From Methylobacterium mesophilicum SR1.6/6 (GTDB taxonomy: Bacteria; Pseudomonadota; Alphaproteobacteria; Rhizobiales; Beijerinckiaceae), in NCBI RefSeq assembly GCF_000364445.2, contig NZ_CP043538.1, positions 1,123,612 through 1,187,611 on the forward strand: a stretch of 64,000 nucleotides of DNA, in the 5' to 3' direction. How positions within the stretch are numbered: position 1 is the stretch's first letter; each line of letters opens with the position of its first letter. Shown here piece by piece: positions 12,284 to 59,644 of the stretch. Below the pieces are notes generated by a model. That model saw only the letters and a program-made list of their open reading frames with translations, made no database searches and had not been told where the DNA came from. The translations under genes and the position numbers were made by a program.

Positions 12284-13824
12284 TGGTTACGGTTTCACGT
12301 GAAACAGCGGCGGCTGCGAGAACGCGCGTGTCGCGCGCCGTTCTGCCGGCCCTGTGCCTGCCGCTCCTCCTCGCCGGCTGCGTGGTCGGTCCCGATTATG
12401 CCCGGCCCTCCGTGGAGACTCCGCTCGCCTACAAGCAGGGCGGCGTCCGGGAGGACAGCCCCGCCTACGTCGCCGCCCGGAGGAAGGGCTGGCGCGAGGC
12501 CCGGCCCAGCGATGCCGTCGAGCGCGGCGACTGGTGGCGGGTCTTCCGGGATCCGACCCTCGACCGGCTGATCCGCCTCGTCGACGTGGACAACCAGTCC
12601 CTCCGGCAGGCGGTGGCCAACTACCGGCAGGCCCGGGCGCTCGTCGCCTCCGCGCAGGCCGCCCTGTACCCGACCGTGATCGGCGCGCCGAGCATCACCC
12701 GGACCGGCAGCGGCAGCACCACGCGCACCAACGTCTCGCTGATCGGTCAGGCGAGCTGGGAACTCGACCTGTTCGGCGGTACCCGCCGCACCATCGAGAG
12801 CGAGGCGGCGCTGGCCCAGTCCGACGCCGCCACGATCGCGCTCACCCGCCTGACCATCCAGGCGGAGGTGGCAGCCGACTACCTGACAGTGCGCTACGCC
12901 GATTCCCTCCAGAGGGTGCTCGACGAGAACGTCGAGAACTTCAAGAAGACCCTGGCGATCACCGAGAACCAGTACGCCGCCGGCGTGGCGGCGCGCTCCG
13001 ACGTGATCACCGCGCAGACCCAGGTCCAGACCATCGAGGCCCAGGCCATCGCGGTGCGCCTGACCCGGGTGCAGTACCTGAACGCCATCGCCACCCTGAT
13101 CGGCCGGCCGCCCTCCGAGGTGTCGATCCCGGTCGCGGGCATCGCCCGGAACCCGCCGGGCGTGCCGGTCGGGATCCCGAGCGACCTGCTGGAGCGGCGG
13201 CCGGACGTCGCCCAGGCCGAGCGCCTCCTCCAGGCACAGAGCGAGCGCATCGGCGTGGCGGTGGCGGCCTTCTTCCCCACCGTCACGATCTCGGCCCAGG
13301 GCGGCATCTCGGGCGCGACCCGCAACGGGCTGCTGTCGGCGGCGAACCAGGTCTGGTCGGTCGCGGCGTCCGGCAGCGAGGTCCTGTTCGACGGAGGCGC
13401 CCGCACCGCCGCCCTGCGCTCGGCGGAAGCCGGCTACGATTCCGCTGTGGCCGGCTACAGGCAGGTGGTGCTCGCCGCCTTCGCGGAGGTCGAGAACCAG
13501 ATGGCGGCGCTCCGCATCCTCGGCCAGCAGCAGGGGGCGCAGGACAAGGCCGTCGACCTGTCGCGCAAGGCCGTGGAGATCACGCTCAACGAGTATCGGG
13601 CCGGCACGCAGAACTTCACCACCGTGGTGACCGCGCAGGGCCTGCTGGTGACCAACGAGATCAACGCCCTTCAGGTGCGGCTGAACCGCTTCACCGCGGC
13701 CGTGACGCTGATCCGGGCGCTCGGCGGCGGCTGGGACGTACGCTCGCTGCCGAGCGATTCCGAGCTGAAGGGTCCGAGCCTCCCGATCGACCGGGGCGGG
13801 CAGGCGGTGCGGCCGGACGAGTAG
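12283..13824 (+). CDS. NodT-family RND outer-membrane factor lipoprotein
   Basis: TolC-like outer-membrane channel of 513 residues that completes the tripartite pump. The signal peptide ends in the lipobox LLLAGC (Cys33), followed by VVGPDYARPSVETP, characteristic of OprM/NodT proteins. Two OEP repeats follow, with NYRQARALVASAQAALYPTV and, in the second half, LLERRPDVAQAERLLQAQS. The C-terminal motif is FTTVVTAQGLLVTNEINALQ. ATG 12283-12285 overlaps the mdtC stop (TGATG). The codons for VSRET coincide with a perfect 14-base palindrome resembling parS (listed separately). Lipid anchoring and outer-membrane location follow from the family. Confidence 0.93.
   Translation: MVTVSRETAAAARTRVSRAVLPALCLPLLLAGCVVGPDYARPSVETPLAYKQGGVREDSPAYVAARRKGWREARPSDAVERGDWWRVFRDPTLDRLIRLVDVDNQSLRQAVANYRQARALVASAQAALYPTVIGAPSITRTGSGSTTRTNVSLIGQASWELDLFGGTRRTIESEAALAQSDAATIALTRLTIQAEVAADYLTVRYADSLQRVLDENVENFKKTLAITENQYAAGVAARSDVITAQTQVQTIEAQAIAVRLTRVQYLNAIATLIGRPPSEVSIPVAGIARNPPGVPVGIPSDLLERRPDVAQAERLLQAQSERIGVAVAAFFPTVTISAQGGISGATRNGLLSAANQVWSVAASGSEVLFDGGARTAALRSAEAGYDSAVAGYRQVVLAAFAEVENQMAALRILGQQQGAQDKAVDLSRKAVEITLNEYRAGTQNFTTVVTAQGLLVTNEINALQVRLNRFTAAVTLIRALGGGWDVRSLPSDSELKGPSLPIDRGGQAVRPDE
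12292..12305. promoter_or_regulatory. parS-like ParB binding site
   Basis: GTTTCACGTGAAAC is a perfect palindrome, followed by A. It matches the bacterial parS consensus TGTTTCACGTGAAACA at 15 of 16 positions (only the first base differs). It lies inside the first codons of the outer-membrane factor gene and encodes the VSRET pentapeptide, as coding-region parS sites often do. ParB loading at such sites directs chromosome segregation. Binding is inferred from sequence only. Confidence 0.75.
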
Positions 13825-56421: not shown

Positions 56422-57600
56422 TCAGCCCTGCCCGCGCAGCCGCGCGAGCATCCGCTCCACATGGGCGACCGGCGTCTGTGGCGTGATCCCGTGGCCGAGG
56501 TTGAAGATGTGCGGCAGGCCGGCGGTCGCCGCCAGCACCGCGTCCACCGCGGCGTCGAGGGCCGCGCCGCCCGCGATCAGCGTGTCGGGATGCAGGTTCC
56601 CCTGCGTCACCGTCGTGGCTGGCACCGTCTGCCGCAGGGCCTTCAGGTCCACGCCCCAGTCGACGCCGACGGCGTCGGCGCCGGTCTCCGGGACGACCCG
56701 GGCATGGCCGTCGAGGCCCGAGCCGCGGGCGAACACGATGATCTTGGCTCCCGGCACCCGGGCACGGACCCCCGCCACCATCCGGGCGATCGGCTGCAGC
56801 GACCAGCGGGTGAGGGCGTCCGCCGCGGACGCGGCCGGCAGGGCGCTCTCGGCCACGTCGCCCACGGGCTCGACGCCGCCGCCGGAGGCCGGCACGGCGC
56901 GGGGGAGGGTGCCGGCGTGGGACTCGAAGATCTGCACCGCGTCGGCGCCGGCCTCGAGCTGGCGCACGAGGTACTCGGTCTGCACGGCGACGAGGCGGTC
57001 GATCAGGGTGTCGACCAGGGCGGTGTCGCCCTCGGCGAGCGCCCGCGCGGGGGCGAGGTCCGGCGTGCCGCGGCCGCCGATCATGTAGCTCGCCACCGTC
57101 CAGGGGGCGCCGCAGAAGCCGAGCAGCGTGGTCTCGCCCGGCAATTCCGCGCGCAGCCGCGTCACCGTCTCGAAGACCGGCGCGAGATGGGTCATCACCG
57201 CCGGGTCGCCGGCCTCGCGCAGGCGCGCGAACGCGTCCCGGCCGTCGAGCGGGTCGAGCCGGGGCCCCTCGCCCTCCACGAAGCGCACGTCCTGGCCGAG
57301 CGCGTGGGGGACGACCAGGATGTCGGAGAACAGGATCGCCGCGTCGAAGCCGAAGCGCCGGATCGGCTGGAGCGTCACCTCGACGGCGAAATCCGGGCTG
57401 TAGCAGAGGTCGAGGAACGAGCCGGCCTCCGCCCGGGTCGCCCGGTATTCCGGCAGGTAGCGCCCGGCCTGGCGCATCATCCAGGCGGGGGGCGGCCCGA
57501 TCGCCTCGCCCTCGAGGACCCGCAGCACCTTGCGCTCGGACGTCGTCCCCGACGTCGTCTGCCCGGGCTCGCGCTCCGTCCCCGTCATGGTCGCTCCCAT
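56422..57600 (-). CDS. hemE: Uroporphyrinogen decarboxylase HemE
   Basis: Cytosolic enzyme of about 392 residues that converts uroporphyrinogen III to coproporphyrinogen III. Landmarks are [20 protein letters not shown] (substrate arginines), [49 protein letters not shown], and the C-terminal [20 protein letters not shown]. Start ATG 57600 (GAGGG upstream) is preferred; ATG 57588 with GGGAG upstream is an alternative. An Ala-rich loop ([20 protein letters not shown]) is unusually long. Divergent from the PPDK regulator; the space between is the proposed origin. Confidence 0.95.
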
Positions 57601-57777
57601 CCCGTATCCCTCACCCCGCATGCCCGTCGGCGGGCGTCCTGTCGAGTCGAGGCGCGCCGATCCCCACACAGGCCCCTTCGAAAAGATAAGAGAGACTCTT
57701 GGAGTCTGTTTTTTCTCTTGGAGGGCCGAATCTCGGGGGCACAAAAGCGTCCACAGGCGGTCCCCGGCGCCGCGCCG

Positions 57778-57792
57778 TTAACGGGGCTTTAA
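57778..57792. promoter_or_regulatory. CtrA full binding box in the candidate origin
   Basis: TTAA-CGGGGCT-TTAA is an exact TTAA-N7-TTAA match. In Caulobacter, CtrA bound to such boxes in the hemE/RP001 interval blocks replication in swarmer cells. Match seen directly; function by analogy. Confidence 0.7.
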
Positions 57793-57982
57793 AGGATTTC
57801 CTCCAACTTGCGAGAACCGGATGGTCCGACAGCAGCTTGGCAACGCTGAGTCGTGTACGGGCGCCGGATTCGCGGCCGATTCGTCCAGAGAGCCGGATTC
57901 CGCCTGTCCCGATCATCTGCCTGTGAACGGCGGAGTCGATAGCGCGCATCGGGATCGCGCTGGACCGGCCCGGCGGGGCATC

Positions 57983-57991
57983 CTATCCACA
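57983..57991 (+). promoter_or_regulatory. DnaA box (8 of 9)
   Basis: CTATCCACA differs from the consensus TTATCCACA only at the first base. It is the best DnaA-like box I see in the interval. Confidence 0.6.
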
Positions 57992-58087
57992 CTCATCGAC
58001 TCCCCTGGCGGCCGGCGGTGGACAACGTGGGCGCCGCGCGAGGCGACCGCACAGTCGGCCGAGAGGTCGACCGCAGAGGCGATCGGA

Positions 58088-58918
58088 ATGGGCCGCAGCT
58101 ACTTCCACCTCCACCTCGTCTCCGACTCCACCGGCGAGACGCTGATCAATGTCGGGCGCGCGGCCGCCGCCCAGTACGAGGGCGTGTCGGCGATCGAGCA
58201 CGTCTACCCGCTGGTGCGCTCGGCCGCGCAGCTCGACCGGGTGATCTCGGAGATCCGGGCCGCGCCGGGCCTCGTCCTGTACACGCTGGTGGGGGGCGAC
58301 CTCGGCGAGCGGCTGGAGGAGGTCGCCCGGGAGACCGGTTCGCCCTGCCTGTCGGTGCTGCGGCCGGTCCACGACCTGTTGCGCGCCTATCTGGGCGCCG
58401 AGACCACGGCGCGGCCCGGCGCCCAGCACATGCTGAACGCCGAGTACTTCAAGCGCATCGACGCGATGAACTTCACGCTGGCCCACGACGACGGCAACCT
58501 GCCGGACGATCTGGAGGAGGCCGACGTGATCCTGCTCGGCGTCAGCCGGACGTCGAAGACGCCGACCTCAATCTATCTCGCCAACCGGGGCCTCAAGACC
58601 ACCAACCTGCCGCTGGTGCCGGGCATGCCGCTGCCACCGGCGATCGAGCGGGCGCGCAAGCCCCTCGTGGTCGGCCTGTTCGCCTCGCCGGAGCGCATCG
58701 TGCAGATCCGGCAGAACCGGCTGTCGAGCCTCAACGCCGACGAATCGTCCCTCTACGTCGACCGCTCGGCGGTGGCGGACGAGATCACCGCCTCCCGCCG
58801 GCTGTTCGTCAAGAACCGCTGGCCGACGATCGACGTGACCCGCCGCTCCATCGAGGAGACGGCAGCGGCGATCGTCGATCTCTACCGGGACCACCGCCTG
58901 AAGTTCATCGCGGATTGA
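58088..58918 (+). CDS. ppsR: PEP synthase/PPDK regulatory protein (DUF299, RP001 homologue)
   Basis: Bifunctional kinase/phosphorylase of 276 residues that inactivates and reactivates phosphoenolpyruvate synthase or pyruvate phosphate dikinase. Landmarks are [20 protein letters not shown] at the start, [40 protein letters not shown], and the P-loop [19 protein letters not shown] at about residues 150-170. The C-terminal part has [17 protein letters not shown] and [19 protein letters not shown] 58088 was chosen because [16 protein letters not shown] is the family start. Homologues of this gene (RP001 type) form one side of the alphaproteobacterial origin. Confidence 0.92.
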
Positions 58919-59422: not shown

Positions 59423-59512
59423 GCCTGCCCTTCCTGTTCGGTCGGGCGGCCCCGTCACGTCGCGGCTTCGGCGCACGGCCCCACCGCGGACGGCGAGAGG
59501 CGCGCCCGTGCG

Positions 59513-59575
59513 GTAGGAGCCATCAGCCCGGCGCGGGAGGCCGGGCGGTTGTCGGGGAGCTCCATCCCCATCGCG
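59513..59575 (-). ncRNA. Fluoride riboswitch (crcB motif)
   Basis: On the minus strand the sequence reads GATGGGGATGGAGCTCCCC, then GACAACCGCC, a GGC-rich hairpin, and GCTGATGGCTCCTAC. This is the conserved core of the fluoride riboswitch (GATGG...CTCC, AACCGC, CTGATGRCTCCTAC). It lies in the crcB leader and should turn on expression when fluoride binds. Boundaries are approximate. Confidence 0.88.
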
Positions 59576-59644
59576 GACAGGCTTAGCGCAGGAGACCGGG
59601 CAGGGGAATCCGGTTTTCCGGGCCCCGCACGCCGCCCCGCCGCG

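Follow-up and report, generated by a model that had tools for sequence, protein, structure and literature searches.

Where does replication of the chromosome begin in Methylobacterium? The question is raised by a short non-coding interval between two divergent genes, hemE and ppsR. An origin bounded by hemE has been proven in Caulobacter and predicted in Rickettsia and its kin (PMC1914354), hemE is used as an indicator gene in Ori-Finder (PMC2275245), and the Rhizobiales have been grouped with the Caulobacterales as having kept nearly all of the Caulobacter factors (PMC2877005). The hemE-type origin is a kind already known. The Methylobacterium interval is a well-supported new member of that kind, but it conflicts with a genome paper on Methylobacterium oryzae that puts the origin beside dnaA (PMC4161386). 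Among the titles and abstract openings of the open literature we found no Methylobacterium origin assigned to hemE, although DoriC may hold such a prediction.

In this paper we describe the interval in Methylobacterium mesophilicum SR1.6/6 and compare it with related loci and genomes. Judged from sequence, it is very probably the chromosomal origin, oriC, of the alphaproteobacterial hemE type.

The hemE-ppsR interval and its candidate sites

The window, that is, the whole stretch of 64,000 nucleotides that was analysed, comprises bases 1,123,612 to 1,187,611 of the SR1.6/6 chromosome, a single contig of 6,555,179 bases. The interval lies at chromosome positions 1,181,212 to 1,181,698. Its features, in window coordinates, are as follows.

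56422..57600, minus strand: hemE, uroporphyrinogen decarboxylase (PF01208, E 3.8e-100), left boundary, first base 57600
57601..58087, no strand: candidate oriC, the entire hemE-ppsR intergenic interval, 487 bases
57644..58002, no strand: span of ten GANTC sites (first bases 57644, 57694, 57702, 57728, 57848, 57867, 57878, 57896, 57933 and 57998)
57661..57666, plus strand: TCCCCA, Caulobacter W-box-like, kept in the displayed Methylobacterium rows of the alignment and absent from the outer rows
57675..57722, plus strand: A/T-rich tract that includes two GANTC sites, proposed as unwinding element on its A/T content, conserved in the alignment
57747..57755, plus strand: GCGTCCACA, second conserved DnaA-like site, containing TCCACA at 57750
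57778..57792, no strand: candidate CtrA box, TTAACGGGGCTTTAA, exact match to TTAA-N7-TTAA
57922..57927, minus strand: TTCACA, weak DnaA-like core
57983..57991, plus strand: CTATCCACA, predicted main DnaA box, matching TTATCCACA at 8 of 9 positions
58017..58025, minus strand: TTGTCCACC, weak DnaA-like site, 7 of 9 positions
58088..58918, plus strand: ppsR (DUF299, RP001-type kinase-pyrophosphorylase; PF03618, E 5.4e-88), right boundary, ATG at 58088

An earlier note had proposed an origin here from the letters of the DNA, and the anatomy that it listed was recovered throughout. The protein family matches place hemE on the minus strand and the RP001-type gene on the plus strand with 487 bases between them, the perfect CtrA box is the single exact TTAA-N7-TTAA, and the DnaA box with eight of nine matches is CTATCCACA. 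Its W-box-like element is present as TCCCCA, which resembles the Caulobacter motif. The many CcrM sites amount to ten GANTC where 0.75 are expected per 487 bases (rate from 1.2 Mb of the chromosome), and within the A/T-rich tract the 45-mer starting at 57675 is A or T at 28 of 45 positions, a level reached by 0.4% of sampled 45-mers. As a single strand the tract folds no better than its shuffles. Over its whole length the interval has 65.9% G+C compared with a mean of 69.0% in 60 chromosome samples, and is therefore only mildly A/T-rich (34.1% versus 31.0% A+T, a modest excess).

The intergenic region is bounded by divergent hemE and COG1806 (DUF299) genes, and ppsR is a single-copy gene in this genome. 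Set beside the DnaA, CtrA and IHF sites by which such origins have been described (PMC1914354), the interval has one exact CtrA box, one DnaA box of eight matches in nine, and weak sites. It contains no full TTATNCACA DnaA box and, at up to one mismatch to either of two consensus forms, no IHF-like site. Near the right boundary gene, a fluoride riboswitch (RF01734, 50.8 bits; window 59507-59578, minus strand) stands directly upstream of a crcB-type gene (PF02537) on the same strand.

The nearest known counterpart is Cori of Caulobacter crescentus, which has the same divergent hemE/COG1806 boundaries, a CtrA box, sub-consensus DnaA-type sites and an A/T-rich region of about 40 bp (PMC1914354, PMC4468827). 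Cori differs in having five CtrA boxes, compared with one here (PMC1914354), and one IHF site. The predicted origin of Rickettsia prowazekii shares both boundary genes, hemE and RP001, and spans 384 bp (PMC1914354), but is 82.6% A+T as against 34% in the Methylobacterium interval.

By analogy with Caulobacter (PMC1914354, PMC4468827), DnaA would load on the main box CTATCCACA, nucleate there, spread over the weaker TCCACA-type sites and then melt the A/T-rich tract. Phosphorylated CtrA bound at 57778-57792, between the tract and the main box, would block this assembly of DnaA until it was removed, and the methylation state of the GANTC sites may mark newly copied origins and so report the state of replication. 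With a CtrA box beside DnaA sites, the silencing of an origin by CtrA becomes directly testable in a methylotroph.

Rarity and conservation of the sites

The density of GANTC is the strongest simple anomaly of the interval. Ten or more such sites were found in only 3 of 23,460 overlapping sampled windows (1.2 Mb), all three at one place near 5.2916 Mb. The exact CtrA motif occurs 33 times in the 6.56 Mb of the chromosome, compared with 11 times for its backwards control. We scanned for joint occurrences of the sites in 81 stretches, 1.65 Mb with some overlap or about a quarter of the genome. In these stretches hemE-ppsR was the only place where a CtrA box was accompanied by five or more GANTC, and also the only one where it was accompanied by a DnaA box (one mismatch allowed); two further 10-kb pieces contained no other joint occurrence of CtrA and DnaA sites. 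DnaA-like boxes by themselves are unremarkable, as four other places in the 1.65 Mb hold two within 500 bp and hemE-ppsR does not. Densities of eight or more GANTC per 500 bp were confined to three places in the same 1.65 Mb, namely hemE-ppsR, just upstream of dnaA (2,238,051-2,238,751) and near 5.29 Mb (5,291,451-5,292,301, with up to 10 per 487 bases). The cluster at dnaA suggests CcrM-dependent control of that gene.

Related loci were found mostly in genomes named Methylobacterium; the closest is that of Methylobacterium sp. J-088, whose ppsR protein is 100% identical. The two boundary genes are adjacent in all 38 related loci from other genomes. Their intergenic regions, which we bounded by the ends of the protein matches and not by annotated starts, contain an exact CtrA box in 32 of 38 cases, including 30 of 30 in L093-L121 and L124 (Methylobacteriaceae and near kin); the box is absent from those of L125-L130 (Ensifer, Ciceribacter, Rhizobium and less well named kin). 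The intergenic regions of the 38 loci, 18,530 bases in all, contain 34 CtrA boxes, compared with 0 for the 443,876 bases of their flanks, and GANTC stands at 13.1 per kb in the intergenic regions versus 1.6 per kb in the flanks. A DnaA-like site within one mismatch of TTATCCACA is present in 35 of the 38, its place not always being that of CTATCCACA.

Origins on the hemE side also belong to the background of the Rhizobiales, for example in Sinorhizobium meliloti. The Ensifer (L125), Rhizobium (L129) and Ciceribacter (L127) loci have the same hemE-ppsR pair but differ from SR1.6/6 in having no exact TTAA-N7-TTAA and more DnaA-like sites (two to four at up to one mismatch). A further record, NZ_LR743510.1 (L247), is a linear sequence of 2.83 Mb labelled 'plasmid 1' of M. 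bullatum; it holds hemE, the conserved interval and ppsR, and so is probably a piece of chromosome.

An alignment of 31 rows, which took in 30 of the 38 loci and left out L122, L123 and L125-L130, resolved the conservation into blocks: the A/T-rich tract, TCCACA at 57750, the CtrA box, TGCCTGTGAAC, CTGGACC, and, strongest of all, CTATCCACA followed by ATCGACTC. In the outer rows (L109, L113, L116, L121 and L124) the CtrA box falls outside the aligned column, yet each of these regions has one elsewhere; only among closer relatives is the position of the box itself conserved. The blocks exceed four-fold sites of ppsR in conservation in 27 of the 29 loci used, a partly circular result in that these relatives had also served to choose the blocks.

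Divergent genes need promoters, and CtrA boxes and GANTC sites occur in promoters too, which counts in favour of reading the blocks as the hemE and ppsR promoters under CtrA, DnaA and CcrM control, with no role in replication; the GANTC clusters at two other places in the chromosome point the same way. Such promoters would leave the conserved TCCACA pair and the A/T-rich tract unexplained, together with the nearby parB and parS and the position of dif, which are described below, and the proven Caulobacter origin is bounded by this same gene pair (PMC1914354). We consider a purely promoter role very unlikely.

Segregation markers, dif and the position of dnaA

The chromosome has one strong ParB match, at 1,096,844, and a second, weak one at 998,731. 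Of its seven exact parS-type sites, three (1,085,259, 1,095,198 and 1,135,903) lie, with ParB, 45 to 96 kb from the hemE-ppsR interval; the others are at 2.07, 2.16, 3.84 and 4.39 Mb, and a site with one mismatch is at 1,111,742. Allowing up to one mismatch, parS gave 12 matches and its backwards control gave 1. One of the three exact sites, all within 51 kb beside parB, falls in the window:

12292..12305, no strand: parS, GTTTCACGTGAAAC

In 20 relatives parB is 9 to 314 kb from ppsR.

As a marker of the terminus we searched for the core of the Agrobacterium-type dif given in Table 1 of PMC2731167. SR1.6/6 has a single copy, at 371,699. When two mismatches were allowed, the core was recovered from 96 of 105 congeneric genomes, and the backwards control gave none among the matches listed. 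DNA flanking dif is alike between SR1.6/6 and 8 of 20 relatives. Arms were compared in the 20 relatives that carry ppsR and dif on one chromosome-sized contig, drawn from 24 few-contig relatives by leaving out G048 and G061 (no dif match), G069 (dif on another contig) and G038 (a contig of 2.45 Mb); the length of G100 was taken as a rounded 6.2 Mb.

In 17 of the 20 relatives the shorter arm between ppsR and dif spans 0.4 of the contig or more, which puts dif roughly opposite the interval, though the 17 genomes share ancestry and are not independent, and a binomial probability for the count would be misleading. Arms are unequal in G005 (0.197), G011 (0.322) and G029 (0.145), where dif is a candidate with two mismatches, as it is in G100, yet there the arm is 0.488. 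G005, G011 and G029 are large genomes. Together with the local anatomy, the conservation and the nearness of parB and parS, the opposite dif supports the chromosomal origin that the earlier note had placed here.

The single dnaA match of SR1.6/6 is at 2,237,229, 1.06 Mb from the interval, and in the 20 relatives dnaA is 0.82 to 2.6 Mb from the likely origin. Contigs are often numbered as if from dnaA, which lies within the first 2 kb in 12 of 22 genomes. If replication began on the upstream side of dnaA, the position given for M. oryzae CBMB20 (PMC4161386), the hemE region would be just a conserved, cell-cycle-controlled locus. The dense GANTC cluster upstream of dnaA would suit such a start, and so would an exact parS at 2,155,379, 82 kb from dnaA. 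The chromosome arms do not: the shorter dnaA-dif arm is 0.319 at most, reaches 0.4 in none of the 20 relatives and is 0.285 in SR1.6/6, so that no origin beside dnaA and opposite dif was found, and the dnaA-linked origin against which the earlier note had set its proposal fails in 20 of 20 relatives. Moreover, parB is not near dnaA, and the stretches scanned around dnaA showed no joint occurrence of CtrA and DnaA sites. A start at dnaA is in our judgement highly unlikely.

An origin at hemE-ppsR would place the start of replication in Methylobacterium where GC skew cannot and correct the working assumption of a dnaA origin. Studies of replication dosage, gene position, replication-linked mutation and minichromosomes in the genus would then centre on hemE-ppsR. 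The predicted oriC of Methylocystis sp. SC2 is comparable in that GC skew is uninformative, the site is away from dnaA and dif is almost halfway round, but differs in being a region of 1,063 bp (PMC3794950).

Strand polarity and gene order in SR1.6/6

The genome of SR1.6/6 itself fits less well. As assembled, dif is 0.81 Mb from the interval, or 0.124 of the chromosome, which leaves arms of 0.81 and 5.75 Mb. GC skew, which the earlier note had offered as a check, was flat over 60 samples of 20 kb, a signal too weak to decide for or against it. The cumulative polarity of GGGNAGGG, a motif that resembles the KOPS motif of E. coli, has an origin-like minimum near 3.96 Mb and a terminus-like maximum near 1.32 Mb, close to the interval; taken alone, these turns put the interval on the terminus side. 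An unsupervised octamer partition gave weak breakpoints, the best at 3.74-3.85 and 5.83 Mb. A shift of strand composition at the interval, which is supporting evidence for an origin and not a strict requirement, was thus not found in SR1.6/6.

In the relative G089 (97% identity across hemE-ppsR), one arm carries GGGNAGGG chiefly on the plus strand and the other chiefly on the minus strand. The cumulative count of the motif peaks at 1.57-1.72 Mb (dif at 1.77) and reaches its minimum at 4.39-4.54 Mb (parB at 4.70, ppsR at 4.86), with turning points near dif and 0.2-0.5 Mb from hemE. Since GGGNAGGG was chosen after GGGCAGGG had been seen among the skewed octamers of G089, this agreement is not an independent test; SR1.6/6 is one, and there the motif disagrees with the interval. 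Neither GC skew nor composition singled out the dif/hemE pair in G089 (best rank 26 of 780 by octamers, 149 by single bases), so that only GGGNAGGG supports the interval in that genome. The earlier note had accepted that an origin signal far from the interval would count against it: in SR1.6/6 the distance to dif and the GGGNAGGG turn partly do so, whereas in G089 the GGGNAGGG turns and dif agree with hemE.

Might the working origin of this strain have moved to 3.8-4.0 Mb, or a second have arisen there, leaving the hemE interval as a displaced relic? The GGGNAGGG minimum, the point opposite dif (about 3.65 Mb) and an exact parS at 3,839,026 all favour that. Nowhere in five pieces covering a minor part of the region (3.74-3.76, 3.834-3.844, 3.85-3.87, 3.95-3.96 and 3.96-3.98 Mb) did CtrA and DnaA sites occur side by side. 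In the genome ppsR and dnaA are each present once, ParB has a single strong match, and the hemE interval retains all its sites. The gene order, shuffled relative to G089, and a flip of polarity at about 1.23 Mb also fit displacement or misassembly, and a relic at hemE seems extremely unlikely.

Between samples of SR1.6/6 and G089 there were 17 sequence matches, some of them one place found twice, strongly shuffled in order and strand. Near the interval, GGGNAGGG occurs 20 times on the plus and 9 times on the minus strand at 1.13-1.23 Mb, and 3 times on the plus and 20 times on the minus strand at 1.23-1.31 Mb, as if a segment beyond 1.23 Mb were inverted. The 1.62 Mb examined contained no run of N, which argues against an N-joined scaffold and not against misassembly through repeats. 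A 16S rRNA search for marks of rearrangement, which scored 20 of the 110-140 candidates per genome, gave 3 matches in 2 of 6 genomes and none in SR1.6/6, and carries no weight here. The unequal arms are probably the product of a recent rearrangement or of an assembly error, with the core of the origin itself intact. It is unlikely that the strain truly replicates along arms as unequal as 0.81 and 5.75 Mb with its hemE origin intact, or that the start of replication has moved to, or been duplicated at, about 3.8-4.0 Mb, where a turn of GGGNAGGG polarity and a lone parS are found; in either case a free-living bacterium would have its origin, its dif and its strand polarity uncoupled to an extreme degree. 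As it stands, the hemE/parB block of SR1.6/6 agrees neither with dif nor with the turns of GGGNAGGG polarity, and these two do not agree with each other, as in a chromosome that has been rearranged or misassembled.
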